A DNA stretch of 64,000 nt from Thermoflexus sp. GTDB taxonomy: Bacteria; Chloroflexota; Anaerolineae; Aggregatilineales; Aggregatilineaceae. The notes below the pieces were generated by a model. It made no database searches. It was not told the DNA's origin and saw only the letters and a program-made list of their open reading frames with translations. The position numbers and the translations under genes are program-made. The DNA lies in assembly GCA_020724465.1 (NCBI GenBank), contig DYGX01000006.1, forward strand, positions 193,603 to 257,602, in the 5' to 3' direction. This document shows positions 1,756 to 42,315 of the stretch, piece by piece. Numbering within the stretch: position 1 is the stretch's first letter; each line of letters begins with the position of its first letter.

Positions 1756-4473
1756 ATGACACCCTATCACGCCACGCTGGTCAGCCATACCCACTGGGAC
1801 CGCGCCTGGTACGTGACCTTTCAGGAATACCGCATCCGGCTGGTGCGCCTGGTGGACCGGCTGCTCAGGTTGCTGGACGACAACTCCGATTTCCGCGTGT
1901 TCATGCTCGACGGCCAGATGAGCGTGCTCGAAGATTATCTTGAGGTCCGCCCCGAGCGCGCCGCCGCGCTGCAAGCCCACACCCGCGCCGGCCGGATCCA
2001 GGTCGGGCCGTGGTACGTGCTGGCCGACGAGTTCCTGGTCAGCCCGGAGTCACTGATCCGCAACCTGATGCGCGGGCGCAAGATGGGCGAGCCGTACGGG
2101 GGCGTGATGCCGATCGGGTACGTGCCGGACGGCTTCGGACATATCGCGCAACTCCCGCAGATTCTGCGCGGCTTCGGGCTGGATAACGCGTTCTTCTGGC
2201 GCGGGATGGGCGCCGAGGGCGACCGGCTGGGGACCGAGTTCACCTGGTGCGCGCCGGATGGCTCGTGCGTGACGGCGATCCTGATGCCCTGGGGCTATCA
2301 CAACGTCACCAACCTCGGCTATGGCATCCACTGGGGCGATGTGTCGCAGATGGCGTTCGACTGGGATCTTGCGCAGGAGAAGATCGAGCGCGCCATCGAC
2401 AAGCTGATCCCGATGGCGAACACCGACGCGCTGCTGCTGATGAACGGCATCGACCACGCTGAGGCCGAGCCGCGCATCCCGGAGATCATCCGCCGCGCCA
2501 ACGAGCGGTTGGACGGCGTCCGGATCGAGCACGGCACGCTGGCCGATCACCTGGCGCGGGTGCGCGCGTCCGGCGTCGAGCTGCCCGCCTTCGAGGGCGA
2601 GTTCCGCTGGGGCCGCTACTCCGAGATTTTGCAGGGCGTCTACTCCACGCGCATCCACCTCAAGCAGCAAAACCACGCGGGCGAGGTGCTGCTGGAGCGT
2701 TACCTGGAGCCGCTGGCGGCGCTCGCCTGGCTGTCGGGCGCGGATGTGCCCGAAGGCACCCCGGCGCTGGTGGACGAGGCGTGGCGCTGGCTGCTGCTCA
2801 ATCACCCGCACGACGACATGTACGGCAGCGGCATCGACGAGGTCCACCACGAGATGCTGTTTCGCTTCAGCCAGTCGCGCCAGATCGCCGAGGCGCTGGT
2901 GCGCGACAGCCTGCGTCAGATCGCCCGGCAGGTCGACTTCAGCGCGCAGCCCGGCACGCCGCTGCTGGCTTACAACCCGCTGGGCTGGGATCGCGACGAA
3001 GTCGTCGAAGCGGCGATCGAGTTCGACTTCGACGATCCCACGGCAGATGACTTCCAGATCGCGGACGCGCGAGGACAGATCGTCCCGCATCAGGTGATCG
3101 GTGACGAGCAGCGTTTCTGGATGGAGGTGCTCAAGCCGAACCGCAAGCGGGTGGTCCAGGTGCTGTTCCCGGCGCAGGTGCCGGGGATGGGCTATCGTGT
3201 GTTCTTCGCGCAGCCGCACGCTCCGGGCGCTGCCGCGCCTGCCACCGATCTCGCCGTCCACGAGCGGGGCGCCGAAAACAGCTTCCTGTGGTTTGAGATC
3301 GCAGACGACGGCGGCCTGACCGTCACCGACAAGCAGACCGGCGCGACCTACCCGGGCCTGCACCACTTCTTCGACGTCGAAGATGCGGGCGACGAGTACA
3401 CCTTCTGCCCGCTGCCGGAGCACAGCGAGATTGTCAGCACGGTCGGGCAGCCGGCGAGCATTACATGCGTCGCGGCGGGGCCATGCCTGGCCGCGTTCAG
3501 CATCACGCGGGAAATGCAGATCCCGGCGTCTCTCGGCGACGACCGCGCGCGCCGCTCGGCAGAGCGCGTCAGCCTGCCGGTCAAATCCGAAATTCACCTG
3601 TACGCAGGGACGCGCGGCCTTTACATTACCACCGAGATCGACAACCGGGCGCGCGACCACAAGCTGACGGTCAACTTCCCGACCGGGCTGCGGGTTGAGC
3701 ACGCGCACGTCGACGCGTCGTACATGGTCGCCGAGCGCGCCCTCGCCCTGCCCGACTCGACCGGTTGGGTTGAGGACCCCACGCCACTGATGCACCAGCG
3801 CGCCTTCACCGATCTGAGCGACGGCGCGCGCGGGCTGGCGATCCTCAATCGGGGCCTGCCCTCGGTCGAGGTGATCGCGGACGGCACGATTGCGCTGACG
3901 CTGCTGCGGGCGGTCGGGTGGCTCTCGCGCGATGACCTGTGGGTGCGGCGCATCGCGGCGGGGCCGCTGGTGCCCACCCCCGGCGCGCAATGCCTGGGCG
4001 TTTATCGCTACCAGTACGCGATCCTGCCCCACGCGGGTGACTGGCGCGCGGTCTACCCGGTGGCGTACGCCTACAACGCGCCGGTGCTGGTCCGCCGCGC
4101 CGACACGCACCCCGGCCTGGACCTGCGCGAGATGAACATCACCCGCGACGATCCGGCTCGCGTGCGGGCGATCCCCTGGCCGCGCGGCGGTCCGCTGCCG
4201 CCGGATCTGCGCGTCGTCGGGGTGGAACCGGGCGCGCTCGTCCTCAGCGCCGTGCGCCGTAGCGAGCGCGACACGCTGATCGTCCGCTGCTATAACATCA
4301 CGCGCCAGCCGGTGCACGGCACGATCCGCTGCGGGCTGCCGGCGCGCGAAGCGTATCGCACCACGCTGGCCGAGGAGCGCCTAGTGCCGCTGGCGCTCGA
4401 CGGCGGCGCCGTGACGGTCCAGGCGCGCGGCGGCGAGGTGGTGACAGTCGAGTTCGTGCCCGAAGGAGCGTAA
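1756..4473 (+). CDS. GH38 alpha-mannosidase
   Basis: A 905-residue protein with the GH38 signature. HTHWD at residues 11-15 supplies zinc-binding His and Asp. PDGFGH follows, whose Asp125 is the expected nucleophile and zinc ligand. HPHDDMYGSGIDEVHHEM near residue 350 supplies another conserved His. The C-terminal 500 residues are the beta-rich domains usual for the family. It hydrolyses alpha-mannosidic bonds, probably in the cytoplasm since no signal peptide is seen. The upstream 105 bases contain no clear promoter, so it may be cotranscribed with the GH127 gene. The next gene starts 7 bases downstream. A second, more diverged GH38 lies at 45397-48609. Confidence 0.93.
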   Translation: MTPYHATLVSHTHWDRAWYVTFQEYRIRLVRLVDRLLRLLDDNSDFRVFMLDGQMSVLEDYLEVRPERAAALQAHTRAGRIQVGPWYVLADEFLVSPESLIRNLMRGRKMGEPYGGVMPIGYVPDGFGHIAQLPQILRGFGLDNAFFWRGMGAEGDRLGTEFTWCAPDGSCVTAILMPWGYHNVTNLGYGIHWGDVSQMAFDWDLAQEKIERAIDKLIPMANTDALLLMNGIDHAEAEPRIPEIIRRANERLDGVRIEHGTLADHLARVRASGVELPAFEGEFRWGRYSEILQGVYSTRIHLKQQNHAGEVLLERYLEPLAALAWLSGADVPEGTPALVDEAWRWLLLNHPHDDMYGSGIDEVHHEMLFRFSQSRQIAEALVRDSLRQIARQVDFSAQPGTPLLAYNPLGWDRDEVVEAAIEFDFDDPTADDFQIADARGQIVPHQVIGDEQRFWMEVLKPNRKRVVQVLFPAQVPGMGYRVFFAQPHAPGAAAPATDLAVHERGAENSFLWFEIADDGGLTVTDKQTGATYPGLHHFFDVEDAGDEYTFCPLPEHSEIVSTVGQPASITCVAAGPCLAAFSITREMQIPASLGDDRARRSAERVSLPVKSEIHLYAGTRGLYITTEIDNRARDHKLTVNFPTGLRVEHAHVDASYMVAERALALPDSTGWVEDPTPLMHQRAFTDLSDGARGLAILNRGLPSVEVIADGTIALTLLRAVGWLSRDDLWVRRIAAGPLVPTPGAQCLGVYRYQYAILPHAGDWRAVYPVAYAYNAPVLVRRADTHPGLDLREMNITRDDPARVRAIPWPRGGPLPPDLRVVGVEPGALVLSAVRRSERDTLIVRCYNITRQPVHGTIRCGLPAREAYRTTLAEERLVPLALDGGAVTVQARGGEVVTVEFVPEGA

Positions 4474-28960: not shown

Positions 28961-29782
28961 TCAACTGCGCCGGCGGGGGATGATCGTCACCTTGCGGTTC
29001 TCGCCCTCGCCCACGCTCTCGGTCACCACGTCGGGATGGTCGCGCAGCGTCAGGTGTACGATGCGGCGCTCGTAGGGTGGCATCGGCTCCAGCGAGACAG
29101 TGCGCCCCAACTGGATCGCCTGCTCGGCCATGCGCGTCGCCAGCCGCCGCAGGACTTTCTCGCGGCGGGACTTGTAGCCCTCGACATCGAGCACGATGTT
29201 GGCGCGGCGCTCAAGGTCGCGGCTGGCGATCAGCCGGGTGATGTACTGCAGCGCGGCGAGCGTCTCGCCCCGCCGCCCGATCAACATCCCCAGGTCGCGC
29301 CCGCGAATTTGCAGCACCCACGGTGCCTGCTCGCCGGGCGCCGCTTCCGAGCGGAAGACCACGATCTCAGCGTCGATGTGCATTTTGTTGAGCAGCTCTT
29401 GCAGCGTCGCGCGGCCCACGCGCGCGTCGTCGTCCAGCTCGCTTTCCGGCGACGGCTCGACGCGCATCTCGTCCTCTTCCGGCTCGGCCACGCGCTCCGC
29501 CACGGCGCGTCTGGCGGCAGGGCGAGGGGCGGGCTTCGCCGCCACCGGCTCAGGCTCGGCAGGGGGCGGTTCGGGGGCTGGCGGCGTTTGATAGCGGGGC
29601 GGCGCCGCCGTCGTGAGGCGGATCCGCGCCTGGCGCGCGCCCAGGCCGAGGATCCCGCGGCTGGGTTCTTCGAGAATTTCGACAATCACGCTCTCGCGCG
29701 AGACGCCAAGCTGCTCCAGGCCGATCTCAATCGCTGCCTCAATATCGGCGGCAGTCGTTTCTACAGACCGCGTTTCGCTCAT
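28961..29782 (-). CDS. jag: Jag/KhpB RNA-binding protein (Jag-N, KH, R3H)
   Basis: A 273-residue protein. The Jag-N domain (about residues 10-57) ends with SRGILGLGARQARI. A Pro/Ala/Glu-rich linker spans about 60-120. A KH domain follows with the GxxG loop LIGRRGETL. The R3H domain carries YERRIVHLTLRDHPDV near the end. KhpB binds RNA with KhpA and affects cell elongation and membrane-protein biogenesis. The start at 29782 is chosen for AAGGGGGTG five bases upstream. It follows yidC by 27 bases, the conserved order in many bacteria. Confidence 0.94.
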   Translation of the reverse strand: MSETRSVETTAADIEAAIEIGLEQLGVSRESVIVEILEEPSRGILGLGARQARIRLTTAAPPRYQTPPAPEPPPAEPEPVAAKPAPRPAARRAVAERVAEPEEDEMRVEPSPESELDDDARVGRATLQELLNKMHIDAEIVVFRSEAAPGEQAPWVLQIRGRDLGMLIGRRGETLAALQYITRLIASRDLERRANIVLDVEGYKSRREKVLRRLATRMAEQAIQLGRTVSLEPMPPYERRIVHLTLRDHPDVVTESVGEGENRKVTIIPRRRS

Positions 29783-29809
29783 AGCACCCCCTTTTGGCGG
29801 GTCACGCAC

Positions 29810-30805
29810 TCAACTCTTGGCTTTGCTCTTGCTCTGGCTGCGCTCCAGACGCGTGTCCCGAATACCACTACGCTTGGGTTTGACGATGGGCGCGGCGCTG
29901 CTGGTGTTTGGTTTGGGCGCTGGCTTCTTGGGCTGCGCCTGCTTCTGCTGAGCGCGCGCCGCCTTGCCCGTGCCGCGCTTGGGTTTGGCTTGAACCGCAT
30001 CTTCGGCCACCTCGTCCGCCACCGGGTCCGCCTCGGCCGTCCTAGGCAGCCCCTTCGCCTCAGCCTCGGCAGGGGCGCGCCCCGACACGGACTGCCAGCC
30101 GATCTTGCCCATCAACGCGTATTGCGCAATCCCAATCAGGTTCGAGGCAATGAAGTAGATCGACAGGCCGGACGCAAACGACAGCGAGAAGATACCGAAC
30201 ATCAGCGGCATGATAGTCATCATCTGGCGCGACATCGCTGCTGCCTGGTCCGACTTCTCACTGCCGCCGCTCGACGCGGACGCCGGCATCAACAGCTTTT
30301 GCTGCAGCCAGGTCGTCACCACTACCAGCACCGGCAACACATACAGCGGGTCCGGCACGGCCAGATTCAGCCACAGGAACTTGTTCTGCAGCGGGACTTC
30401 CGAGGCCAGCGCCGGGACCCACAAGCGCCCCGACAGATCGAGCAGTTCCAGCGGAGTCGCAGCCAGCGTGGCCACAATCGCCCGGTAGAGGCCGATCAGG
30501 ATCGGGAACTGGATCAACAGGGGCAGACAGCCGGCCAGCGGGTTGACGCCGTACTGGCGATACAGCTCCATCTGCGCCTGGGCCGCTTTTTCGCGGTCGT
30601 TCTTGTACTTCTCCTGGATGCGCTTCAGCTCGGGCTGAAGCTCCTGCATGGCTTTGGTCGAACGCTGCTGCTTGAGCGTCAACGGCATGGTCGCCAGGCG
30701 CACCAGAACGGTGAAGACCACAATCGCCAGGACGACGTTGCCACCCAGGATCTTGTACAAGAACAGCAGGATGGTGATAAACGGGTTGATGATCAGATCA
30801 AACAT
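29810..30805 (-). CDS. yidC: YidC/Oxa1 membrane protein insertase
   Basis: A 331-residue insertase of the short Gram-positive/Oxa1 type, without the large periplasmic domain. The first hydrophobic segment is FITILLFLYKILGG. The conserved groove Arg sits in VLVRLATMPLTLKQQ. The coiled cytoplasmic hairpin is KAMQELQPELKRIQEKYK. The CLPLLIQFPILIGLY helix follows, and the chain ends in a Lys/Arg/Ala/Pro-rich tail of about 90 residues that may contact ribosomes. It inserts membrane proteins alone or with Sec. It is third from the end of the operon started by rpmH. Confidence 0.96.
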   Translation of the reverse strand: MFDLIINPFITILLFLYKILGGNVVLAIVVFTVLVRLATMPLTLKQQRSTKAMQELQPELKRIQEKYKNDREKAAQAQMELYRQYGVNPLAGCLPLLIQFPILIGLYRAIVATLAATPLELLDLSGRLWVPALASEVPLQNKFLWLNLAVPDPLYVLPVLVVVTTWLQQKLLMPASASSGGSEKSDQAAAMSRQMMTIMPLMFGIFSLSFASGLSIYFIASNLIGIAQYALMGKIGWQSVSGRAPAEAEAKGLPRTAEADPVADEVAEDAVQAKPKRGTGKAARAQQKQAQPKKPAPKPNTSSAAPIVKPKRSGIRDTRLERSQSKSKAKS

Positions 30806-30849
30806 AGCTGGGCGCCTTCACACTCATCGACGGGACGCGGCAACCGGGC

Positions 30850-32004
30850 CTACTTGTTCGCATAGGTCCAGTCACGCTCACCGGTCGCCACGTTCAGGGC
30901 GACGATCAGATTGTCGCGATTATCGGTGCCCGCGACGACTGTCACCGGCCCATTTTCGTCCTCAGCCGGCACGCTGACCAGCTCGGTCAGGACCTTGCCT
31001 TCCACGTGCTTTTTCCACGCTTCCGCGCCGCTGGCGCGGTTCACGGCGTAAATATACCCATCGCGCGCCCCGACGATCACCAGATCGTCGGCCACCAGCG
31101 GCGTCCCGCGAATCGCTTCCTGCGTGAGGTTCACTTTCCAGTTCTGGCTGAAACCGTCGTCGCCGATGGTGACGGCGTACAGGTTGCCGCCCAGATCGCC
31201 GATAAAGAGCTGGTCGTCGGCCAGTGCGGGGCTGCTCCAGACCCACTCTTCCGTCTGGAAGCGCCCAACGACGCGCCCCTCGACCAGATCCACCGCGGCC
31301 ACGCCCGCACCAAACGTGCCAACGTAAACGCGCTGGCGATCCGCATCATAGAGCATGTCACCCGGCGCGGCGCCACCCAGGTTGACGCTCCAAAAGAGAT
31401 CGCCCGTCGCGGGGTCGAGCGCGTAAAGCTTATGGTCGAGCGAGGTGACGAGCAGCACCGGCTCTCCACGGGGGCTGGTCTCGGCATCAAGATAGAGCGG
31501 CGTGCCCCACACGCCGTGTCCCGTCTCGAAGGTCCACACGCGCGAGGCATCCCCGCGCGAGACGGCCACAACATTGCGGCTGCCCAGACCAAAGAACGCC
31601 AGTTCCGGGCTGAGCGCCACCCCGCTGATCACCCGGTCGGCTGGGTCGGGCGACAGCGGGCCAATGAGCGTTTTGCGCTCCGGCTCATAGATCCACTGGC
31701 GCGCGCCGCTTTCGGCATCGATGGCGTGCAAGCGCCCCTTGTAATCGCCCACGTAGACGCTGCCATTATCGGCCACCGGCACGGCGAAGAACTGCGCGTC
31801 GCGGTTCTCGCTGTCCGGATATTCCCACAGCACCGCCCCGCTCGCCGCGTTGAGCGCCACCACGCTCCGGTCGTAGGCCACGTAGATCGTCTCGCCGCTC
31901 TGGCTGGAACTGACGCCGGCCCAACTGCCGCCGGCCACCCCGCCGCACGCCGCAAGCGCCACAGCCAGCAGCAGCAGAACCCCCAACCGCAGGCGGGGAC
32001 GCAT
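30850..32004 (-). CDS. PQQ-like beta-propeller lipoprotein (BamB-like)
   Basis: A 384-residue protein with lipoprotein signal MRPRLRLGVLLLLAVALAAC (Cys20) and then about seven repeated blades. Examples are YVAYDRSVVALNAASGAVLW, YVGDYKGRLHAIDAESG and YAVNRASGAEAW, as in PQQ-type beta-propellers without PQQ ligands. Such proteins scaffold assembly complexes (for example BamB) or bind ligands. The start at 32004 gives a compact signal; an ATG at 32049 would add 15 residues. It lies between yidD and yidC, an unusual insertion that hints at a role in membrane or envelope protein biogenesis. Confidence 0.85.
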   Translation of the reverse strand: MRPRLRLGVLLLLAVALAACGGVAGGSWAGVSSSQSGETIYVAYDRSVVALNAASGAVLWEYPDSENRDAQFFAVPVADNGSVYVGDYKGRLHAIDAESGARQWIYEPERKTLIGPLSPDPADRVISGVALSPELAFFGLGSRNVVAVSRGDASRVWTFETGHGVWGTPLYLDAETSPRGEPVLLVTSLDHKLYALDPATGDLFWSVNLGGAAPGDMLYDADRQRVYVGTFGAGVAAVDLVEGRVVGRFQTEEWVWSSPALADDQLFIGDLGGNLYAVTIGDDGFSQNWKVNLTQEAIRGTPLVADDLVIVGARDGYIYAVNRASGAEAWKKHVEGKVLTELVSVPAEDENGPVTVVAGTDNRDNLIVALNVATGERDWTYANK

Positions 32005-32068
32005 GTATTTCGAGGGGAAGATATTCAAGACGGTTTCCCTGACACTCATACTCGTTTGTAGACCCGCT

Positions 32069-32278
32069 TCACGGGACCGGATCGTAGCCGCCCGGCCCCA
32101 GCGGATGACAGCGGCCAATACGCTTCAGCCCCAGCCAGCCGCCCCGGATCAGGCCGTACTTCTCGATAGCCTGATAGGTGTACTGCGAGCAGCTCGGATC
32201 GTAGCGGCAGCTTGGCGGCAGCATCCGCGATAGGGTGCGCTGATAGATGCGAATAGCCAACAGACCCAGTGCTTTCAT
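32069..32278 (-). CDS. yidD: YidD membrane protein insertion efficiency factor
   Basis: A 69-residue protein with the complete family pattern: an amphipathic N-terminus IRIYQRTLS, then [28 protein letters not shown] and the terminal GGYDPVP. It helps YidC-dependent insertion at the membrane. Its start overlaps the rnpA stop by four bases, so the two are translationally coupled. Confidence 0.95.
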
Positions 32279-32634
32279 GGCGCATCATCCTTGGGCGCGT
32301 TTGTGTGCAGCCCTGCCCGCTGCAGGCAGCTTACCACGGCAGCTCGAATCGCCGCCAGGTCCTGCCCGGCGATCGCCTCTCGCGCAATGAACACGACGTC
32401 ATATCCCTGGGCCAGCGCCGGATGAGCCTGCCGGACCGCCTCTCGCAGCAAGCGCCGGATTCGATTCCGCTGGACCGCATTCCCCAACCGCTTGCCAATT
32501 ATAAACCCGTAGCGATTGTGCGGGAGAGCATTGGGCGCGGCGCTCATGATCACGAAGGGATGGCGCCAGACCTGCCCGGATGTGCGGAGACGTGCGAAAT
32601 CCTCTTTGCGGCGCAGGCGCAAGGGGCGCTGCAT
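32275..32634 (-). CDS. rnpA: Ribonuclease P protein component
   Basis: A 119-residue basic protein. [15 protein letters not shown] is the N-terminal RnpA motif, and the RNR signature reads [20 protein letters not shown]. It binds RNase P RNA and assists tRNA 5' processing. The ATG at 32634 is the only start that fits homologues; the frame continues upstream through rpmH but that is out-of-frame read-through. It begins 23 bases after the rpmH stop. Confidence 0.95.
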
Positions 32635-32657
32635 GGCGGCAGGCTCACGGGCTGAGG

Positions 32658-32837
32658 CTAGTCGCTCTTCCAGTTGATCTTCTTGACGTGGTTGTTCATC
32701 GTCGGCGCGAGCACCTTGCGGCCCTTGGCGCGGCGCGCCTTGAGCACCTGGCGCCCAACGCGCGTGCGCATCCGCTGGCGGAAGCCGTGCACGCGGACCC
32801 GACGACGCCGCTTGGGTTGATACGTACGCTTTGGCAT
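32658..32837 (-). CDS. rpmH: 50S ribosomal protein L34
   Basis: A 59-residue protein read directly from the sequence: [20 protein letters not shown], then [20 protein letters not shown], then a tail ending [10 protein letters not shown]. The first 44 residues are standard L34, which is usually 44-47 residues; the remaining 15 or so are a C-terminal extension. AAGGA lies eight bases before the ATG. It is the first gene of the rpmH-rnpA-yidD-yidC-jag block. Confidence 0.95.
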
Positions 32838-32974
32838 GGATGCGATCCTTCTTCCAAAAAACGCGCACAGGGCGCGGGTTCGACCAGTCAGCCGGTCACT
32901 CGGTCCGGCGCGGCCCGCTGATCAGACCCGGATTGGCGCTGTGCGGGCCGGCGATCGTGCGGTCAAGGACGGCA

Positions 32975-33040: not shown

Positions 33041-33682
33041 TCACCGGCGCCCGTTCAGCACGTGGCGCAGGCGCCATTCCAGTTCGCTGAGCATGATCGC
33101 CGTCGCACCCCAGACCCGGTAGCCCTGCACATCATACCAGGGCACGCGCAGGCTGTAACCCTCAAACAGCCAGTCCTCGACGTGCTTGCGCGCCTCGTCC
33201 AGCAGCCCGCCGAGCGGAAGCTCCAGCACCTCAACTACTTCATCCGCCTGCGGTTGCCAGCGGGGTCGCCCCGCCAGCGTGCCCACAAAAGGCGTGACCT
33301 CGAAATCGCTTGGTGGGATGTAGAGCGGCGCCAGCCGGCCTATGATCTGCACCGCCGCCCTGACCCCCAGCTCTTCGCGCGCCTCGCGCAGCGCGGTTTC
33401 CAGCGGAGTCTCGCCCGGTTCCTGCGCGCCACCCGGCAGGCCGATCTGCCCGCTGTGGACGTCGCCCGGATGCTCGGCGCGGCGAATCAGCGGAAAGGCC
33501 AGCCCGTCGTCGCCGGGATAGAGCAGCACGATCACGCTGGCCTGATGCGGCTGGCCCGGACGGTTCTGCGGGCGGCGCAGCACGCGTGGCTGCGGCGCCA
33601 TGCGACGCTGGGCTTGCAGCGGGTCGAAGCCATCCAGCGCCAGCGCCGCCCGCACATCGTCGAGCGAGACCGGCGCAGTCAT
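33041..33682 (-). CDS. Nudix hydrolase, CoA pyrophosphatase (NudL)-like
   Basis: A 213-residue protein. The Nudix box runs from Gly85 (GAQEPGE, then RE at 99-100, EE at 103-104 and LGV) and is intact. The upstream FPLIRRAEHPGDVHSGQIGLPGG is the UPF0035 signature of the CoA-pyrophosphatase subfamily, so CoA or acyl-CoA is the likely substrate. It is the last gene of the minus-strand E1/E2/JAB operon, overlapping the gene before it by four bases (ATGA). Whether its activity serves that system or is incidental is unknown. Confidence 0.88.
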   Translation of the reverse strand: MTAPVSLDDVRAALALDGFDPLQAQRRMAPQPRVLRRPQNRPGQPHQASVIVLLYPGDDGLAFPLIRRAEHPGDVHSGQIGLPGGAQEPGETPLETALREAREELGVRAAVQIIGRLAPLYIPPSDFEVTPFVGTLAGRPRWQPQADEVVEVLELPLGGLLDEARKHVEDWLFEGYSLRVPWYDVQGYRVWGATAIMLSELEWRLRHVLNGRR

Positions 33683-34020
33683 GCCCGGTACCAGGCCCGC
33701 CGCTTGCGCAGGGAAATGCCCGCGTCGGTCTCATCCCGCTGCGTGGTCCGTACCCGCCCGCGCGGGTCGATGTGTATCTGCCCGGCCTGCTGCAGGCGCG
33801 CGAACTCTTCCGGCGTGATGTCCGGCGCCGGCTCGCCGCCGAGCCGCTCCAGGCGCGACACCAGATCGTCTTGAGCCGTCCCGGTGGGCGACTCGGCGGT
33901 CACCTTCGGCGGCTCAGTGCCGGGGGCGGCCTGTTCCGGCGGGGCGGACGGGGTTGCCGGCTCGCTGTCGGGAACCGGTTCGTCGGGAGTCGGGGTGTTG
34001 GGAGTCAGATCATCGGTCAT
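33679..34020 (-). CDS. Small Pro/Thr-rich protein of unknown function in E1/E2/JAB operon
   Basis: A 113-residue protein starting MTDDLTPNTPTPDEP. The first 60 residues are an acidic, Pro/Thr/Ser-rich, probably disordered stretch. The C-terminal half (DITPEEFARLQQAGQIHIDP, ending RKRRAWYRA) looks folded and basic. There is no transmembrane segment and no C-terminal Gly-Gly, so it does not look like a ubiquitin-like modifier. A GAGGAAG lies about nine bases before the ATG. It overlaps the E1-like gene by 11 bases and the Nudix gene by four. Confidence 0.75.
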   Translation of the reverse strand: MTDDLTPNTPTPDEPVPDSEPATPSAPPEQAAPGTEPPKVTAESPTGTAQDDLVSRLERLGGEPAPDITPEEFARLQQAGQIHIDPRGRVRTTQRDETDAGISLRKRRAWYRA

Positions 34021-34969
34021 TAGCGTTTTCTTCCTCGTTTGTCTGGCTGCTCCGGCTGCGCGGAGCGTCTTCCGCGGCACGCGCCGGATCGTCCTCAAAC
34101 GACACGCCGCCGAGCGCGGCCAGGTCGTCCAGCGAGACCGCGCGGGCGGTGGTGTGCGGCTTGCGGCAGCCGCATACCAGGCAGTCCGGATTGCAGGGCA
34201 CGGTCACCCACTCGGCGCCATAGGGCGGGGTGATGCGCCCCTCGTAGATTTCAAGCTGGCGGTTGGCGAGGATCACCGTGTTGCCCGGCATCTCGTGGTA
34301 GGCTTCGGTGTCTTCCAGCAGGGCGTTGAGCGCCAGATCGGCCTGCGTGGCGGCGATGCGCACCACGTGCAGCCACAACCCCGGCTCGGCGGCGAGCGTG
34401 CCATCCGGCCCGATCATCCCGTAATCCAGCTCGGCCACGTCGCCCACCGGCTCGGCCAGCCCCTCGCGCAGATGCTCGGCCCAGCAGGCATAGCACGGCC
34501 CTTCGTCCGGGCGAATGACGCACACATCGCCCCCCTCGCCACGCTCGTAGACTCCGGCATACACCGCCGTCCGTCCCGCCGCCAGACACGCCTGGTTGAT
34601 GGCGTACTTCGGCCCTTCGGCATCGACGCCCACCACAACCAGATCCATCTGGGCCAGCTTCTCCAGGTGATGCTCGATCCGCCCGTGAATGGCTTCGACG
34701 GCGGCGGCCGGGTTGCGCTGGTGGATCAGGTTGGCGACGGCGGCGGCCTTTGAGCGGCCCAGATCGCGGCGGTCGGCGGCGTGGCGCACGATGTTCGCCG
34801 GTTCCAGCACGTCGTCATCGATCAGGATGAAGCGCCCCACGCCGCTCATTGCCAGCGCCACCGCAGCAAAGCTGCCGCCCGATCCCAGGCCGATCACGCC
34901 CACAGTGCGCTCGCGTAGATAGGCCAGCACACCCTGCCCCAGCAGCCGCTCGACGCGATCCCAGCTCAT
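34010..34969 (-). CDS. E1-like (ThiF/MoeB superfamily) adenylating enzyme lacking the usual catalytic Cys
   Basis: A 319-residue E1-like protein. The nucleotide loop is VIGLGSGGSFAAVALAMSG (Gly27, 29, 31), followed by LIDDDVLEPANIVRH and RSKAAAVANL, as in ThiF/MoeB/E1 adenylation domains. CYAC and CLVCGC form the two halves of a zinc site. The crossover loop, SCAEAGVLG in the MoeB encoded at 38377, reads AELDYGMIGPDG here, with no Cys. The start at 34969 gives a four-base ATGA overlap with the JAB gene; an ATG at 34999 with GAGGAG upstream is possible. It should adenylate a C-terminal carboxylate, perhaps of a ubiquitin-like partner not evident here. Confidence 0.88.
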   Translation of the reverse strand: MSWDRVERLLGQGVLAYLRERTVGVIGLGSGGSFAAVALAMSGVGRFILIDDDVLEPANIVRHAADRRDLGRSKAAAVANLIHQRNPAAAVEAIHGRIEHHLEKLAQMDLVVVGVDAEGPKYAINQACLAAGRTAVYAGVYERGEGGDVCVIRPDEGPCYACWAEHLREGLAEPVGDVAELDYGMIGPDGTLAAEPGLWLHVVRIAATQADLALNALLEDTEAYHEMPGNTVILANRQLEIYEGRITPPYGAEWVTVPCNPDCLVCGCRKPHTTARAVSLDDLAALGGVSFEDDPARAAEDAPRSRSSQTNEEENANDR

Positions 34970-36105
34970 TGCCCGCCGTCCTTTTTCTGCGCCTGCCATT
35001 CCATCTCCTCATAGTGCCGCGCCAGCTCCACCAGCGTGCGCTTGCTGTCCCACTCCCAGGTGGGCATTTCGGTCAGCAACAGCGGGCGCGAGGCGGCGTA
35101 AAGCTGTTCGAACTGATCTTCGCCTTCGGCCACGCGCACCAGCGGGGCGACGCGCAGCGCGGGCTTCTCGTAGGGATAGTCGGCAGACGTGATCAGCAGC
35201 AGGACGTGGGTCGCGCCTTCCTTGTGAACCGCGAAGCAGATCTCGTAGGGCGGGCGCCCGTCGGCATCCCAGCGCACGACATCCACGATGTACCCGTCGT
35301 CAATCAGCAGGCGGTATTCCTGGTCGAAGCGGTGCGGGTGCGCCAGATGCCACGCCAGGGCGGGCAGGCCCGGCAGGCGCTCGTTCTCCCAGACCTCTGG
35401 CGAGACGGGCACGAACTTCTTCTTGCGCCGGCTCATGTACCAGAAGTCGATGCGAACTTCCCACCCCGCCGCTTCGTCGCGCACGGTGATCGCGTTAGGC
35501 GGCAGTGTGGGTTTGGCGGAGAGCGGCGGCGCGGCCTCGCCCGCCGGCTCCCCGCCCTCGACGGCAGGCGCGGCCGGCTCGACCGGCTCCGGCTTGAGCG
35601 GGTGAAGGGTGACGATCGGCGCGACAAGCTGCTCGATTGGCGTCTCGTGGTCTTCGATCATGCGGCGCGCGGTGGCCGCGTCCCCTCCCGAGGGCGCGAC
35701 CATGTCGCCCGGCTGCTTGTGCCAGTCGCCCACGTGTGCCAGCGGCGCGTCCCATTTGGCCGCCAGCGCGTTCCCATACGAGGGACGGCGCAGCTCGCGG
35801 AATGCCTCCCAGTTGATATATAGCCAATGGAAAACATCGCCCTGCCAGTCGTCCCCCTGCTCGAACATGCCCCACTCGCGGACGGCCCGCTCGCCGGGGC
35901 TGATCGTATCGAGGATGTAGATATCCGGCTCGGGGCGCCCCCGCTGCGGGACCACCAGGCCGATCATGGCTTCGCCGGTTTCCGGCTCCGGATAGAGGAG
36001 CGCGCCACGCTTGATCTTCTCGATCACGCGCTGGGCAACGATGACGCGGGGCGCATCACGCGGCAGATCGCGCCCGGTGTCATTCGTCGGGTCATCCATC
36101 ACCAT
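34966..36105 (-). CDS. JAB/JAMM-domain protein with C-terminal E2/RWD-like region
   Basis: A 379-residue protein. The N-terminal 150 residues resemble prokaryotic JAB metalloproteases: Glu45 in TGEAMIGL, then GDWHKQPG and APSGGD with His129, Ser139 and Asp142. The second zinc His of HxH is Gln131 (codon CAG), so activity may be altered. Residues about 150-205 form a Pro/Ala/Glu linker. The C-terminal 175 residues, with YEICFAVHKEG, SADYPYEKPALRV and TWEWDSKRTLVELARHY, resemble a UBC/RWD fold without a catalytic Cys; this second assignment is tentative. A GGAGG precedes the ATG by about eight bases. It overlaps the E2 gene by seven bases. Confidence 0.82.
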   Translation of the reverse strand: MVMDDPTNDTGRDLPRDAPRVIVAQRVIEKIKRGALLYPEPETGEAMIGLVVPQRGRPEPDIYILDTISPGERAVREWGMFEQGDDWQGDVFHWLYINWEAFRELRRPSYGNALAAKWDAPLAHVGDWHKQPGDMVAPSGGDAATARRMIEDHETPIEQLVAPIVTLHPLKPEPVEPAAPAVEGGEPAGEAAPPLSAKPTLPPNAITVRDEAAGWEVRIDFWYMSRRKKKFVPVSPEVWENERLPGLPALAWHLAHPHRFDQEYRLLIDDGYIVDVVRWDADGRPPYEICFAVHKEGATHVLLLITSADYPYEKPALRVAPLVRVAEGEDQFEQLYAASRPLLLTEMPTWEWDSKRTLVELARHYEEMEWQAQKKDGGQ

Positions 36106-36581
36106 CGCAACCTCCTCCTGCGCCGGTCATCCTTCACCGGCGGCATCCGTTCTTCCACCCCCGGCCAGACCCCGGTTGCCCGCCAGGTGTAATAGGCATA
36201 CAGCCACTGGATCGCCCAGCCCGCGACGGTCACCGCGGTGGATGTGCTGGGGTTCCAGCCATAGGTCACGCCGTCTTTTGGGTTGAACAGGCAAAGCTGC
36301 CCGTCTTCATACTGGTGCTTCTCGCTGTACACGCTTGGCTTGAGGACGTACGCCTCCGCCGGGCGGTTGGGGTAATCCTCAGGATACACGATCTTGAGGG
36401 TGTGAACGCGCTGGGGAATCCCGGCCAGGTTGATCTCAACCTCCCCGATCCAGTACAGCAGATCGCGCTTGGGCACCACCAGGCGGAATGTGTCCGCAAA
36501 TGTGGCGCGCATCATCTCCACCTCCAACCGCAGACGGTTGGAGACGCGCTCGCGCGTTCCCCACCAGGCTTCCTTCGGCAT
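36099..36581 (-). CDS. Bacterial E2-like ubiquitin-conjugating-fold protein
   Basis: A 160-residue protein with the UBC pattern: KIVYPEDYPNRPAEAYVL (the YPxxPP strand), His89 in EKHQYEDGQLCLF with Cys97 as expected catalytic Cys, then GWNPSTSTAVTVAGWAIQWL as the post-Cys helix. It matches prokaryotic E2-like families found beside E1 and JAB genes. It ends in a very basic DDRRRRRLRW. It should carry a thioester to a ubiquitin-like protein or transfer it to a target. It sits between the membrane-protein pair and the JAB gene, translationally coupled to the latter. Confidence 0.88.
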   Translation of the reverse strand: MPKEAWWGTRERVSNRLRLEVEMMRATFADTFRLVVPKRDLLYWIGEVEINLAGIPQRVHTLKIVYPEDYPNRPAEAYVLKPSVYSEKHQYEDGQLCLFNPKDGVTYGWNPSTSTAVTVAGWAIQWLYAYYTWRATGVWPGVEERMPPVKDDRRRRRLRW

Positions 36582-36628
36582 ACCTTAAGTTATCCTCCCC
36601 CTCCATCTTCTGCCGTCCCGCCGGGCGG

Positions 36629-37339
36629 TCAGCGCCGGTCAAACCGCGCCCGCGCCGGGGGCTGCTCCTCCTGATCGGCCAGCAGCTCGGACAGGCTGAC
36701 CGCCTGACGCTGGCGCGCGGCCAGGGCCTGCTGCAGCGCGTCGGACAGCTCGCCATCGCTGGCGATATAGCGCTGGATCACGCCCCCGCCGACGGGCTGC
36801 CAGCCGAAGCGGTGCACCGCCAGCAGGGTATCGCCCGCCAGCAGGCGCAGCGTCCACTCGCCGCGCGAGATGCCCTTACCTTCCAGCGGCAGCCACGTGC
36901 CGGGCACAATCGTGTTGCGCCCGCCGTCCAGATCGTACTGGGCCTCGTCCGCGTAGCGCAGCCGCCCCTCGCCGTCGATCAGCTCGAAGCGCACCTCGCC
37001 GCTCGCCGGATAGGGCAGAAGCAGGTCGGCGAAGGGCCGCAGATAGCGCGTGTCCATCAGGACGGCGCCGCCGCGCACCAGCTTCGGCTCGTTGGCATAC
37101 CGGTAGGCCAGCAGGCCGAGGTCGGCCACCTGCACGTAGTCGCTGCTGGCCTCATAGCCCGCGCGCGCCATCGCCTGCCGGGCCGCTTCGGAGATCTGCA
37201 ACTGCTGGCGCCGCCGGGCACGGCGAGCACGCGCATCCTGTACGGCCGCGCTGCCGGACGACGTGTAAAAGGCAAACAGCAGCACCAGGAAAAAGAGAAT
37301 GAACGCCAGAAAGATCACGCCATCCATAGCGCCCATCAT
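36629..37339 (-). CDS. Membrane-anchored beta-rich protein, paralogue of the gene at 37350 (unknown)
   Basis: A 236-residue protein with one N-terminal membrane segment (VIFLAFILFFLVLLFAFY), then a basic coiled stretch RARRARRRQQLQ and a domain opening SEAARQAMARAG. The core runs from VADLGLLAY through GEVRFELIDGEGRLRYADEA to GEWTLRLLAGDTLLAVHRF, a beta-sandwich-like pattern. The tail SDGELSDALQQAL...VSLSELL matches its upstream paralogue. No known family is recognised. The gap to the paralogue is 10 bases and to the E2 gene 47 bases, so it is part of the E1/E2/JAB operon. Confidence 0.8.
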   Translation of the reverse strand: MMGAMDGVIFLAFILFFLVLLFAFYTSSGSAAVQDARARRARRRQQLQISEAARQAMARAGYEASSDYVQVADLGLLAYRYANEPKLVRGGAVLMDTRYLRPFADLLLPYPASGEVRFELIDGEGRLRYADEAQYDLDGGRNTIVPGTWLPLEGKGISRGEWTLRLLAGDTLLAVHRFGWQPVGGGVIQRYIASDGELSDALQQALAARQRQAVSLSELLADQEEQPPARARFDRR

Positions 37340-37349
37340 ATCCGCACCG

Positions 37350-38132
37350 TTACCCCTCGCGGCGCTGGCGGCTCTGCTGGCGCAGCAGCTCTTCCAGGCT
37401 CAGCGGGAGCGAGACGTCTTCCTCGTCCTCGCTGCGCCAGACGCGCTCGCGCAGTTCGCCGTCGGCGGCCATCTGGCGGCGACGCATCGCCAGCGAGGGT
37501 GTCAGGCTGAAGGAGTGAATCCCCAGCATCCCGCCATCGACCTCGAAGTGGACGGTCCACGCGCCGGGCTGAAGCACGCCCTGCTGGTTGCGGCGGATCG
37601 GCAGCCGGTAATCAGGCAGGATGGCGTTTTCGCCGGGCTGAAGCCACTTGTCCGCCTCGTAGATGTACTGCGGCTTGCCGCTCTCGTCACGCAGCTCGAA
37701 GCGCACGCGCCCCACGCGGCTCGCCAGCGGCTCGGGCACGTAGATCGTGGCGAAGGGGCGGATCCCGTCGTCGTCGAGCGAGATGAAGCGCCCGCGCCGC
37801 AGCGCCAGGCCGTCCGGCCGGGGTTCGTCGACGATCAGGCCGATGTCGAGCAGGCGTACCACCGCGTCATAGCGCGGGTGCGACCGGGCGCGCGCCATTG
37901 CCTCGCGTGCGACCTCGGACGGTTCGAGCGCGGGCGCCCGGCGCTGCGGGAGCGCCTCGACCAGTGTGCTGATGTCCACGCCCCGGGCGATCGCCGCCAC
38001 CAGCGCCAGATAGGCCAGCAGCAGCCCCGCGCCAACCAGGGTCGGCACGTTGCCCGCGACCAGCGTCAGCGCCAGCGCCAGCCCGACGATCAAAAGCCAA
38101 ACCAGCGTGCCGCGATGACTTTGTCCGAACAT
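37350..38132 (-). CDS. Membrane-anchored beta-rich protein, first gene of E1/E2/JAB operon (unknown)
   Basis: A 260-residue protein with two N-terminal hydrophobic segments (LVWLLIVGLALALTLVAG and LVGAGLLLAYLALVAAIARG). Then come PSEVAREAMARARSHPRYDA, LLDIGLIVDEPRPDGLALRR, VRFELRDESGKPQYIYEA, GAWTVHFEVDGGMLGIHSF and the tail ADGELRERVW...LPLSLEELL, all matching the neighbouring paralogue in order. It may be an envelope or cytoplasm-facing membrane scaffold. It ends in a single Gly, not Gly-Gly. AAGGGGAAGGG lies just before the ATG. The divergent MoeB-rhodanese gene starts 245 bases away. Confidence 0.8.
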   Translation of the reverse strand: MFGQSHRGTLVWLLIVGLALALTLVAGNVPTLVGAGLLLAYLALVAAIARGVDISTLVEALPQRRAPALEPSEVAREAMARARSHPRYDAVVRLLDIGLIVDEPRPDGLALRRGRFISLDDDGIRPFATIYVPEPLASRVGRVRFELRDESGKPQYIYEADKWLQPGENAILPDYRLPIRRNQQGVLQPGAWTVHFEVDGGMLGIHSFSLTPSLAMRRRQMAADGELRERVWRSEDEEDVSLPLSLEELLRQQSRQRREG

Positions 38133-38376
38133 GCCCTTCCCCTTCGCTTCGCCCCGATGATACCACGCCGCGCCGGGGGCAGCCGTTGGTTATACTCCGA
38201 CCGGATCCGATCTTACCGCATTCTCAGCCCATTTCATGGCCTCACTTCTCAATTTCTCTACGCAGCCACTCCCGACAAGTTGCAGGCCACGCCGGCCCTG
38301 GCAGCCCGCCGCACCAGAGGGTATTGTTAGAGTATCGGATTCCATCTATCCAGTTGACGACGGCACAGAAACGCTC

Positions 38377-39552
38377 ATGACCCTACCAACGCAGATCTCC
38401 GACCTCACCCCGGCCGAACGCCAGCGCTATGCCCGCCACCTGATCCTGCCGCAGGTGGGCGAAGAGGGGCAGCGGAAGCTCAAGCAGGCGCGCGTGCTGA
38501 TCATCGGCACGGGCGGCCTGGGCAGCCCCGCGGCACTCTACCTGGCCGCAGCAGGGATCGGCCACCTGGGGCTGGTCGATTATGATGTGGTGGATGTCAG
38601 CAATCTCCAGCGGCAGGTCATTCACGGCGAGAGCACCCTCGGCGTGCCCAAGGTCGAGTCCGCGGCGCGGCGGCTGCGCGACCTCAACCGGCACGTGACG
38701 GTCGAGGCGCATCACGAGCCGCTCACCCGTCACAACGCGCTGGACATCATCGCCCGCTACGACGTGGTGGTCGACGGGACGGACAACTTCCCGACGCGCT
38801 ACCTGGCTAACGATGCCTGCGTGATGTTGGGCAAGCCGCTGGTCTACGGCAGCGTCTTCCGCTTCGAGGGGCAGGCCAGCGTCTTCGGGCTGAAAGACGG
38901 GCCGTGCTACCGCTGCCTGCTGCCGGAGCCACCCCCGCCGGACAGCGTGCCGAGCTGCGCCGAAGCGGGCGTGCTGGGGGTGCTGCCCGGCACAATCGGC
39001 ACAATCCAGGCGACCGAGGCGCTCAAGCTGGTCCTGGGTGTGGGGGAGCCGCTGGTCGGGCGGCTGCTGCTCTATGACGCGCTGGACATGACATTCGACA
39101 CCATCCGCCTGCCCAAACGCGCAAACTGCCCGGTCTGCGGTGAGCACCCCACCATCACCGAGCTGATCGACTACGAGGCGTTCTGCGGCGTGCCGGGCCA
39201 CCCGCCCATCGACCCGCCTGCCGCCGATCCCCTCGCGCCCGAACTGGCCCCGCGCCAGATCAAGGCCCGGCTGGATGCAGGCGAACCATTGCTGCTACTC
39301 GACGTGCGCGAGCCGTTCGAGCTTCAGTTCAGCCGGATTGATGGGGCGCTCAACATCCCCATGAGTCAGATGGCGGAGCGGTGGAGCGAGATCCCGCGCG
39401 ACCGCCCGGTCGTGGTCTTCTGCCACACGGGGGTGCGCAGCGCCAACCTGATCGACGCGCTGCGCGAGGTGGGTTACACCAATCTGATCAATCTGACGGG
39501 CGGCATCGACGCCTGGTCGCGCGAGGTGGACCCCAGCGTCCCGCGCTATTGA
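38377..39552 (+). CDS. MoeB-type adenylyltransferase fused to rhodanese (MOCS3-like)
   Basis: A 391-residue fusion. Residues about 1-260 are MoeB: GTGGLGSPAALYLAAAGIG, LVDYDVVDVSNLQRQVIHG, CYRC and CPVC zinc pairs, and catalytic loop PSCAEAGVLGVLPG (Cys194). Residues 285-391 are a rhodanese with LLLLDVREPFE and active-site CHTGVRS (Cys349). Such enzymes adenylate and thiocarboxylate ThiS/MoaD-type sulfur carriers. The ATG at 38377 is the family-consistent start; an upstream frame from 38236 is unsupported. It is divergent from the E1/E2/JAB operon, so two E1-like proteins lie within 3.5 kb. It converges with the STAND ATPase gene. Confidence 0.92.
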   Translation: MTLPTQISDLTPAERQRYARHLILPQVGEEGQRKLKQARVLIIGTGGLGSPAALYLAAAGIGHLGLVDYDVVDVSNLQRQVIHGESTLGVPKVESAARRLRDLNRHVTVEAHHEPLTRHNALDIIARYDVVVDGTDNFPTRYLANDACVMLGKPLVYGSVFRFEGQASVFGLKDGPCYRCLLPEPPPPDSVPSCAEAGVLGVLPGTIGTIQATEALKLVLGVGEPLVGRLLLYDALDMTFDTIRLPKRANCPVCGEHPTITELIDYEAFCGVPGHPPIDPPAADPLAPELAPRQIKARLDAGEPLLLLDVREPFELQFSRIDGALNIPMSQMAERWSEIPRDRPVVVFCHTGVRSANLIDALREVGYTNLINLTGGIDAWSREVDPSVPRY

Positions 39553-39564
39553 GTCAGGGGCGGT

Positions 39565-39655
39565 GAAAAGCAGTGAAGAGCAGCGAGAGACAGCTACGCG
39601 AAGCGGGATATCCGCCGGTCGTAGCTGTCTCCGTTTTCCACGCGCTCGCCGCTTT
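39565..39655. repeat. Inverted repeat with decamer-like elements at a convergent gene junction
   Basis: Perfect 12-base arms GAGACAGCTACG (39587-39598) and CGTAGCTGTCTC (39620-39631) enclose 21 bases. The left flank has GAAAAGCAGTGAAGAGCAGC, related in reverse complement to the GCTGTTCTT decamers at 52691 and 58301. It could act as a bidirectional terminator between the MoeB-rhodanese and STAND genes. Confidence 0.65.
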
Positions 39656-42315
39656 TAGCCGCCCTCGTCCAGCGCCGCCTGGGCATAGTCGCGCAGGTTA
39701 TCTTCCGGCAGCATCAGCGTCACGCCCGCATTGGTCAGGCGCTCCTGGCGGGTCTTGGCGCGGCTGAGCAGGCGGCGCGCCTCGGTATCATCCGGCAGCC
39801 GCTCGACCGCCGCCTCAAGAAGCTGAACCACGCGGTTCAACTGGACCGTGTCGTGCATCAACATGCGCGCCAGCGCCAGCATACTGGTGCCGATCGCTTC
39901 CTGGTCGTCCAGTTCAAAGGCCAGATGCAACGCGTGACGGTAGGCCGACTGCGCGCCCGCGTAATCGCCGCTTTCTTCCAGGACGCTGCCCAGCCGCGAG
40001 AGAACCGCGAACGTCTGCGCCTGATCGCCGGCGGCGCGGGCCAGCGCGACCGCCCGGCGATATGCCCGGCGCGCTGCCAGCCAGTCCAGCTGGGCCGCGT
40101 GCGCCTCGCCGAGCTTGTCCAGCGCCTGGCCAAGCAGATCCATGCGCTCCACGCGCTCGAAAATCGGGACGGCCTGATCCAGCACGGCGATCGCGTCCGG
40201 GATGCGGCCGGCTTCGAGGTACAGCTCGCCGAGCCTGTCCAGCGCCTGGCCGATCTCAAGCCAGGCTTCGCCCGGCCGCAAGGCGCGGATCGCCTCTTGA
40301 AACGCCATTTCGGCGCCTTCGGTCCGCCCAAGCTGCATCTGCAACTCGCCCAGCAGGATCAGCAGCTTGCCCTCGCGCTGCGGGTCGTCCAGCTCTTCGG
40401 CCAGCGCCATCCCGCGATCGACATAGTCGAGCACGCCCTGATAATCGGCCCGCTCCAGGCTGAGCGCGGCCAGCGCCTCAAGGGCGGCCAGCTCGTCGGA
40501 GATGTCGCCATTGGCGTGAAAGGCGTCCGCCGCCTGGACGTAATACTCGATGGCGTGCTCGGTGTCATGCGCCTCGGCGGCGCGCTGCGCCAGCTCGCGC
40601 AGCCGGGACGGATCATCCGCCGCAGCGAGAGCCTCGGCAGCAGGAGCGGGCTGCTCTTCCGGCATCGAAGGCGGCGCCGCCGGTCCCGGCGGTACGGCTG
40701 GCTCCGGCGCCGGTTCTTCATGCCACTCCTCGACCGGCTCGCTGGCGGCTTGTTCCAGCACGGCGGTCAGATCGTCGATCGCGGCGTCGGCCTCGTCGAG
40801 CGGCTCCAGATCGGCCGAGTAGTCCGGCCCGGCAGGGACGGTGTCCTGCTCGCCCCACTCTGAATCTGCGGCCAGTTCCGCCCCGGCTGGCGGAGTCGCT
40901 TCGGGTTCCGCTGCGGCCTCAGCCTCCGGCCCGGCTTCCCCGGCGGGGAGCGCATCTTCGGAGGGCGAAGCGAGCGGCGGGGCAGGCTGCTCGGGTTCCG
41001 GCTCGTCCAGTTCCTCGTCCTCAATCGGCTCGTCGGCCCAGGCCAGCAGCGGGACGCTGGCCGCCTGCGGCTCGTCCACCAGATGCCACAGCCATTTCAG
41101 CTCGATGGTGAAGCCGCGGGCGCTGGCGAAATCATCCGAGTGAGACGGGTCCAACCGCAGGACCAGCTCCTCAAGCTGTTCGGTGCGGCCGTGGCGGGCT
41201 GCATAGCGCGCGGCAGCCAGCACCGATCCCATCTCGGCGGCCAGCCGGTCGTGATTGGCGGCTTCGTTGGTGCCGGTCTGACGCTTGACATAGCGCACCA
41301 GGCCGTCCAGATGCCGCGCCCGGATGGCCTCAAGCTGGTTTTTGCGGTGCAGGAAAGCCTTGGCGAAATGGCGCACCAGCTCGTGCGCCGTGTAATACGG
41401 CTCGCCGTAGACGGTAGTGCTCACCGCGAAGCCGCGTTTCACCAACTGGCGTAGCGCGGGGCGCAGCGTTTCGGCAGGTGTCTCGGCCACATCCGCCAGC
41501 AGCGCCTCGCTCGCGCCGGCGCCAAAGGTCGTGCCCAGCAGCAGAACGGTACCCTGCAGCGCGGGCGGCAGCAGGCGATAGGACGCCATGATGATCCCCA
41601 GCATACGGTTGACTGCGCCGCGCGGCAGGTCGGGCAGCCGCGCCCGGAACTCGTCCGGCGAGATGCCCGCCGTCGCCAGCGCCCGCCCGGCCACCACGAT
41701 CCCCAGCGGATAGCCGCCGGTAGCCTCGGCCACCCGGTTGATCTCGCTCACGTCTGCGTCGACATCCGGCCCGGAGACCAGGATCAGCAGCGCTTCGGCA
41801 TCGTCCCGGCTCAGCGGCCCGACGCTGTGCGGAGTCCACGGCCCGCGCCCCCGGTGCGAGTGTGTCAGCAAAACCGGCAGATCGGCGGCGCAGTGTTCCA
41901 CAAAGGCGCGTGCCGCCGACAGGTTGACCACGCCGTCGAACACGATCAGGGGGCGGTGATCGTGCAGCAGGTCACGCACGGTCGCGATCTGTGCGTCCCG
42001 GTCGCTGTCCGGCTGGAGCGCCACGCCATAGGCGCGCGCCGTGCGGGCCAGCAGCGAGCGCAGCGAGTCCTCGGCAAGCTCCAGCCACAGCACCCCCCCG
42101 TCGGAGCCGGTACGCTCGGCGGCGACGGTCGCAGCCAGCGCAGATTTGCCGCTGCCCGGCGCGCCATGCAGCAGCAGCGCCCGGTTGGCTTTCAGCGCCA
42201 GGTGCACCGCCGCCAGATCGGCATCGCGGCCTAAGATCAACTCAGGCGGGCGCACGGGCAGGTGATCTGGATCGCGCAACGGCGCGTCGTGGGGGACAAC
42301 AGACGGTTGGCTCAT
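39655..42315 (-). CDS. STAND/NB-ARC NTPase with TPR repeats
   Basis: An 886-residue cytoplasmic signalling-type NTPase. The P-loop is GAPGSGKS at residues 51-58, Walker B is LIVFDG with Asp127, and ATGGYPLGIVVAG is the STAND GxP motif. A winged-helix-like segment follows near residues 300-345. Residues 430-580 are an acidic Glu/Pro/Ala linker. The last 300 residues are TPRs (for example GEAWLEIGQALDRLGELYLEAGR). STAND proteins act as switches that oligomerise when the sensor repeats bind a trigger. No effector domain is visible at the N-terminus, so the output is unknown. It stands alone on its strand. Confidence 0.85.
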   Translation of the reverse strand: MSQPSVVPHDAPLRDPDHLPVRPPELILGRDADLAAVHLALKANRALLLHGAPGSGKSALAATVAAERTGSDGGVLWLELAEDSLRSLLARTARAYGVALQPDSDRDAQIATVRDLLHDHRPLIVFDGVVNLSAARAFVEHCAADLPVLLTHSHRGRGPWTPHSVGPLSRDDAEALLILVSGPDVDADVSEINRVAEATGGYPLGIVVAGRALATAGISPDEFRARLPDLPRGAVNRMLGIIMASYRLLPPALQGTVLLLGTTFGAGASEALLADVAETPAETLRPALRQLVKRGFAVSTTVYGEPYYTAHELVRHFAKAFLHRKNQLEAIRARHLDGLVRYVKRQTGTNEAANHDRLAAEMGSVLAAARYAARHGRTEQLEELVLRLDPSHSDDFASARGFTIELKWLWHLVDEPQAASVPLLAWADEPIEDEELDEPEPEQPAPPLASPSEDALPAGEAGPEAEAAAEPEATPPAGAELAADSEWGEQDTVPAGPDYSADLEPLDEADAAIDDLTAVLEQAASEPVEEWHEEPAPEPAVPPGPAAPPSMPEEQPAPAAEALAAADDPSRLRELAQRAAEAHDTEHAIEYYVQAADAFHANGDISDELAALEALAALSLERADYQGVLDYVDRGMALAEELDDPQREGKLLILLGELQMQLGRTEGAEMAFQEAIRALRPGEAWLEIGQALDRLGELYLEAGRIPDAIAVLDQAVPIFERVERMDLLGQALDKLGEAHAAQLDWLAARRAYRRAVALARAAGDQAQTFAVLSRLGSVLEESGDYAGAQSAYRHALHLAFELDDQEAIGTSMLALARMLMHDTVQLNRVVQLLEAAVERLPDDTEARRLLSRAKTRQERLTNAGVTLMLPEDNLRDYAQAALDEGG

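Follow-up and report, generated by a model that had tools for sequence, protein, structure and literature searches.

The 64,000-nucleotide stretch of Thermoflexus sp. DNA analysed here (contig DYGX01000006.1, positions 193,603 to 257,602; hereafter the window) contains a cassette of seven open reading frames, all on the minus strand, that encode proteins of 260, 236, 160, 379, 319–329, 113 and 213 amino acids. The first two, memA (37350..38132) and memB (36629..37339), encode paralogous membrane proteins. They are followed by genes for an E2-like protein (36099..36581), a JAB/MPN protein (34966..36105), an E1/ThiF-like adenylating protein (34010..34969; 319 residues from the ATG at 34969, 329 from 34999), a small protein termed p113 (33679..34020) and an ordinary Nudix hydrolase resembling CoA pyrophosphatases (33041..33682), the last being a frequent neighbour downstream of p113. 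Given ATG codons at 34969 for E1 and at 34020 for p113, the genes are separated by gaps of 10 and 47 bases or overlap by 7, 4, 11 and 4 bases, which reproduces the layout described in an earlier, sequence-only reading of this DNA. The E1 start is backed by alignment, as the E1 sequences of relatives begin to match there. The families of just two of the seven genes, ThiF (E1) and NUDIX, passed Pfam cut-offs.

The gene order E2-JAB-E1, mostly followed by p113 and often by the Nudix gene, is kept in about 80 independent contigs. The cassette is therefore conserved far beyond chance, and the synteny expected from the window does hold in relatives. Among 101 relative genomes, 87 yielded the JAB protein (66 of the 69 of good quality) and 84 yielded p113; both were present in 83 genomes and neither in 13 (Fisher test, 4e-12, not corrected for phylogeny). 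Five genomes (G064, G069, G070, G100 and G061) had one without the other. In each of these the match lies close to a contig end, as judged from its coordinates, so the partner may plausibly lie beyond that end. Throughout the window's order, p113 occurs in 135 of 154 genomes with one full-length copy apiece. Some members of the order carry the label Aggregatilineales, which is probably its identity. Among 298 genomes of the class, E2 (E <1e-55) and p113 are present in exactly the same 20, all belonging to this order, and five further genomes carry distant E2s only. There was no convincing p113 match outside the order in these 298 genomes, ruling out a general Chloroflexota protein. Thus, the core of the system consists of E2-JAB-E1 and p113 and is a single-copy, near-universal trait of the order rather than a sporadic defence island; a set retained in this way by almost every genome implies a core cellular role.

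Common descent within a single order confounds all of these association tests, so the genes could be co-inherited neighbours without joint function, with p113 a conserved small protein of another process. However, p113 is sometimes located far from the E2-JAB-E1 trio and yet co-retained with it, and p113 and the trio are jointly missing from families f3, f5 and f6, which makes mere co-inheritance very improbable. We regard p113 as very probably the dedicated partner of the trio, and this is the claim that we make most firmly. In one locus (L071, 10590-12104), a transposase-like gene splits E1 from p113, and p113 is intact.

Passed over in the sequence-only reading, p113 is the most telling component of the cassette. 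Its N-terminus varies, looks disordered and has a high content of Pro, Asp, Glu and Thr, while the last 56 residues before the short end are near-invariant (GEPAPxITPEEFxRL...GRVR...GVSLRKRRAWY; RLERLGGEPAP...SLRKRRAWY in the window). This tail (57 model positions) maps to 33685..33855 on the minus strand, converted from G000:C17:227287-227457. Beyond RAWY, 0 to 16 unconserved residues follow, mostly 1 to 3, a pattern like that of a processed precursor. Fourfold degenerate sites of the tail were 41% identical, compared to 49% in the E2 control; as third positions vary, the conservation acts at the protein level, and a DNA-level element such as a recombination site or an RNA structure was ruled out. 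No family was recognised for p113 in the libraries searched, Pfam, PADLOC, NCBIfam and PHROGs among them.

The E2 call made in the earlier reading was upheld by PADLOC E2 models, which matched at 1e-16, and by matches in the PDB to eukaryotic E2 chains and to chains related to the cyclic oligonucleotide-based antiphage signalling system (CBASS). The latter include the bacterial E2 chain 8hsb_B, which we take to be CBASS-derived. His89 and Cys97, located in the motif KHQxxDGQLCLFNP, are invariant in 109 sequences. For the E1-like protein, the matches in the PDB included ThiF, UBA5, MoeB and MccB, and matches to Pfam ThiF (4e-31) and PADLOC E1 (5e-29) were obtained. Arg72, Lys84 and Asp126 of the adenylation domain, whose loop had been noted before, are invariant in 101 sequences. 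The cysteines at positions 169, 172, 273 and 276 form a nearly invariant tetrad (99–101 of 101), and Cys138 is the other conserved cysteine. Position 202, matched by eye beyond the alignment to the thioester cysteine in the UBA5 and ThiF sequences, is occupied by Leu in 89 and by Ile in 11 of 101 sequences. The E1 may use a cysteine elsewhere or a transfer that requires none.

The JAB protein was matched by PADLOC at 1.5e-5, and its AlphaFold model (predicted local distance difference test score 89) corresponds to BRCC36 and Rpn11 with a Z of about 15 over about 150 residues. Glu45, His129, Ser139 and Asp142 are invariant across 108 relatives. The earlier JAB call thus stands as far as the fold and these four residues are concerned; it was silent on the second JAMM histidine, which is Gln131 in the window (motif GDWHKQPG), and Gln occurs at this position in 93 and His in 15 of the 108 proteins. 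The motif of active JAMM peptidases, E...HxHP...SxxD, is accordingly incomplete in the window's protein, while the JAB fold itself is present. The JAB domain (residues ~19-170) is followed by a second domain (~205-375) that lacks a catalytic cysteine and appears to be an inactive E2/RWD-like domain. As the structural comparison listed mainly the JAB domain, this assignment is based on the order of helix, four strands and two helices in the predicted model, a YPxxxP motif and a weak profile alignment to the E2 family (E 5.5e-4, probability 30). No such JAB-RWD protein was found elsewhere in the phylum in 400 genomes, except for one partial JAB match (E 1.5e-7).

Consistent with the earlier reading, no ubiquitin-like modifier was recognised near the cassette. 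Library scans yielded no match to a ubiquitin-like beta-grasp family for any gene of the operon, and a search with the ubiquitin family gave no match. The window genome contains four ThiS/MoaD-family matches over cut-off, and with such proteins at hand and an E1 nearest to ThiF, UBA5 and MoeB, a ThiS/MoaD-family protein encoded elsewhere could be the modifier activated by E1, with p113 as its substrate or specificity factor. A substrate role of p113 would also suit the copies of its tail at any position in other proteins described below. However, ThiS/MoaD proteins function in cofactor synthesis and are near-ubiquitous, occurring in 12 of 14 control genomes, and none of the loci examined showed a gene of this family near the cassette. 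Together with the negative ubiquitin-family search, this makes a distant beta-grasp modifier unlikely.

The two membrane proteins had likewise been considered for beta-grasp folds. MemA has one or more N-terminal transmembrane segments, a beta-rich domain and a C-terminal SLEELLRQQ helix. The AlphaFold model of memB comprises a long N-terminal helix and an immunoglobulin-like beta-sandwich rather than a beta-grasp fold, ruling out hidden ubiquitin folds in the membrane proteins. Some relatives have up to three copies of these paralogues. They occur in the window's family and in some others, whereas loci of family f2 mostly have none near E2. Membrane tethering, suggested earlier for the system, was not borne out as a general property, since most relatives possess the core without memA and memB; tethering may apply in the window's family, but the core does not include it. 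In some relatives (L033-L036 and L039), a further membrane paralogue, the third and a more divergent one (DIDPGLEL..AG), is encoded directly upstream of E2.

The tail is also found in proteins other than p113. Using a model built from p113 only, the C-terminal half of the tail was detected directly before the toxin-like C-terminal region of an Rhs-type protein (G060, E 7.8e-8) and of an Rhs-associated reading frame (G077, 2.6e-5). In these carriers (L142:638-1771 and L143:734-1375) the tail is located between the Rhs core and the toxin-like region; in L143 the tail protein occupies a reading frame other than that of the Rhs core. With the same model, two prophage scaffold proteins were found to begin with the tail (G071, 6.9e-4; G407, 1.4e-3). 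A later search identified a third prophage, in G410, in which two proteins carry it, the scaffold at 5.5e-6 and the major capsid protein at 2.7e-3. As the model of that search contained the G060, G077, G071 and G407 rows, its E-values for these are circular and only the G410 matches are independent. The capsid and scaffold proteins with an N-terminal tail-like leader are encoded at L167:1094-2077 and 2531-3241 (minus strand), L159:6201-6917 (plus strand) and L153:414-1133 (minus strand), and PHROGs confirmed both assignments. The leader of the G410 capsid protein is an extra segment, since its homologue in G071 matches (64%) from residue 29 onward. Where capsid homologues come from phages of other hosts, the alignment starts at residue 36 or beyond in all but one of 15 records. 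The G410 capsid leader resembles that of the G071 scaffold (E 9e-6). All three scaffolds are themselves related and may therefore reflect one acquisition. A pattern scan of all collected loci revealed the motif in no further protein, and viral scans with the tail and with the scaffolds gave no further carriers. Three other tail matches were set aside, one on the reverse strand of another gene (G091), one in a tape-measure-like protein (G009) and one in a ribonucleotide-reductase-like protein (L152). That phage head proteins and two toxins share the tail points to the tail as the likely entity that the enzymes handle.

In about 30 genomes of families f2 and f4, a gene for a PCMT-type methyltransferase directly follows p113, an adjacency that holds even where p113 is unlinked from E1. 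The best NCBIfam model for this enzyme is the FxLD methyltransferase (249-275 bits in relatives, below the curated cut-off of 320). In the tail, an Asp is followed by Pro in all nine loci from the window's family, where the PCMT gene is absent, and by Ala, Ser or Glu in all 25 PCMT-adjacent loci. Asp-Pro cannot form aspartimide. The pattern thus fits a PCMT acting on the tail Asp, although it could also stem from a single ancestral change. Combined with the absence of a thioester cysteine in E1, these observations could be taken to mean that p113 is the precursor of a ribosomally synthesized and post-translationally modified peptide (RiPP), matured by an E1 similar to MccB and, in many of the relatives, by a PCMT that forms aspartimide, with E2 and JAB as accessories. 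We consider this quite unlikely: no such PCMT was found in the window genome, RiPPs usually conserve the leader and vary the core whereas p113 does the reverse, and the invariant His and Cys of E2 imply thioester chemistry. RiPP-associated PIMT/FxLD methyltransferases (PMC13001092) are comparable in that a PCMT-type enzyme is encoded beside a small protein, as in the relatives; they differ in that the enzymes of the relatives score below the FxLD cut-off and that the conserved end of the peptide is here its C-terminus.

Our favoured reading, to which we would give a probability of roughly one third, is that p113, a protein without a ubiquitin fold, is the client of an order-wide E1-E2-JAB conjugation cassette and that its tail is the recognition element. 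From the sequence patterns we infer a possible order of chemical steps, a cleavage site and the kinds of target. The JAB-RWD protein would cut just after the RRxWY/F motif, E1 would adenylate the newly exposed C-terminus of p113, and the acyl group would move to Cys97 of E2. p113 would then be attached to targets, and JAB would reverse the attachment. The same JAB cut might free toxins from Rhs proteins and strip leaders off motif-bearing phage head proteins; a single cut after RRxWY/F would account for all the settings in which the tail is found, namely at the end of p113, ahead of the toxin in Rhs proteins and in the leader of phage head proteins. An extension of this seems improbable to us: the tail would serve as a portable tag for processing and conjugation by the machine, with p113 as a disordered, non-beta-grasp modifier, and resident phages (on scaffold and capsid proteins) and Rhs toxins would copy this tag so as to exploit or evade a near-universal host pathway.

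Several observations weigh against p113 as a conjugated client. Most JAB copies lack the second zinc histidine, and E1 lacks the usual thioester cysteine at the ThiF/UBA5 position. Two of the prophage carriers, G071 (7e-4) and G407 (1.4e-3), depend on weak E-values and context. The motif is N-terminal in phage proteins, so a free C-terminus is not required. p113 has no conserved residue at its exact C-terminus, in contrast to the Gly/Ala end of CBASS cyclases (PMC10097602). Given this variable end and the N-terminal placement in phage proteins, adaptor and substrate models both still stand. As an adaptor or scaffold, p113 would bring the enzymes to targets via its tail without being activated or conjugated itself, and the phage and Rhs copies would be docking mimics. 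The C-terminal, internal or N-terminal position of the motif, depending on the protein, suits a docking peptide, as does the variable end of p113. In addition, the N-terminal half of the tail alone may recur (KGEPAPYI..EEL..LR.G; E 1e-3 and 7e-3) in a zinc-ribbon protein whose gene, in two related genomes, lies next to that of a PP2C phosphatase (L154:940-1506; L155:997-1608, minus strand). However, conservation spans all 56 residues of the tail up to WY, beyond what a short docking motif usually needs. We give the adaptor role a probability only slightly below that of the favoured reading.

Type II CBASS is the closest mechanistic precedent for the cassette. In these systems, Cap2 and Cap3 conjugate and cleave the CD-NTase (cGAS/DncV-like nucleotidyltransferase) by its C-terminus, with cleavage also in tandem fusions; this protein has no ubiquitin fold (PMC10097602). 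As appears to be so in the cassette, E1, E2 and JAB operate without a beta-grasp modifier, there on a tail-conjugated protein (PMC10097602, PMC11153139). In contrast, E1 and E2 are separate genes in the cassette, which is moreover order-wide and near-universal, and the C-terminal Gly/Ala essential in the cyclases has no fixed counterpart in p113, whose end varies, although a processed end is possible. Library scans revealed no CD-NTase among the seven genes, and none was seen by eye among the recurrent neighbour clusters of about 80 loci. E1-like, E2-like and JAB domains are also combined in the bacterial operon types 6a-6e, which are sporadic across phyla, mostly fused and in some cases accompanied by ubiquitin-like proteins (Iyer et al. 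2006, PMC1779556). The cassette is unfused, limited to one order, and includes p113 and the JAB-RWD fusion. A second system in the same genome (L001, G000:C7, ~18.8 kb) encodes an E1-JAB fusion, whose WHSHP motif is canonical, next to a metallo-beta-lactamase-like reading frame and resembles 6a/6A-MBL. Bil (BilABCD) and Bub operons have separate E1, E2 and JAB genes, as does the cassette, but in addition a beta-grasp modifier, which was not recognised here. Pup is a small disordered modifier with a conserved C-terminal half, features that p113 appears to share; however, Pup ends in GGQ or GGE and is ligated by PafA rather than by E1/E2, whereas p113 ends in RAWY and the 0-16 variable residues.

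Judging from its sequences, the cassette may work like E1/E2/JAB conjugation systems, and we do not assign it to CBASS, Bil, Pup or RiPPs because the defining features of these were absent or not recognised. A literature search with a coverage that excluded subscription papers on Bil/Bub and preprints yielded no description of this gene set, in line with the sequence-only reading, which had matched it to no described system. Most of the bacterial ubiquitin-like systems described to date have a scattered distribution and a link to defence or to mobile elements (PMC1779556, PMC10097602). The present set is near-universal, and its constant partner is not a ubiquitin fold but a small protein with the tail motif. 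Should the tail prove to be the substrate, E1/E2/JAB enzymes would here, as with the CBASS cyclases, act on a protein that has no ubiquitin fold. Copies of the tail in phage head proteins and toxins provide a natural probe of the pathway's role.

In the window, the cassette adjoins rnpA, yidD, yidC and jag (KH/R3H) genes (28961-32868), a cluster usual near the replication origin; among the compared loci, yidC is a neighbour solely in the near-identical L032. On the other side, a divergent MoeB/ThiF-rhodanese gene (38236-39552, plus strand) is located beside memA; it occurs in close relatives only (L032-L034) and may be unrelated. Next to it, positions 39655-42315 (minus strand) encode an 886-residue STAND/AAA-type ATPase with TPR repeats that resembles TPR proteins of FxSxx systems. 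In one clade (about 30 loci, e.g. L082, L098 and L107), a divergently transcribed iron-type ABC transporter adjoins the cassette upstream of E2.

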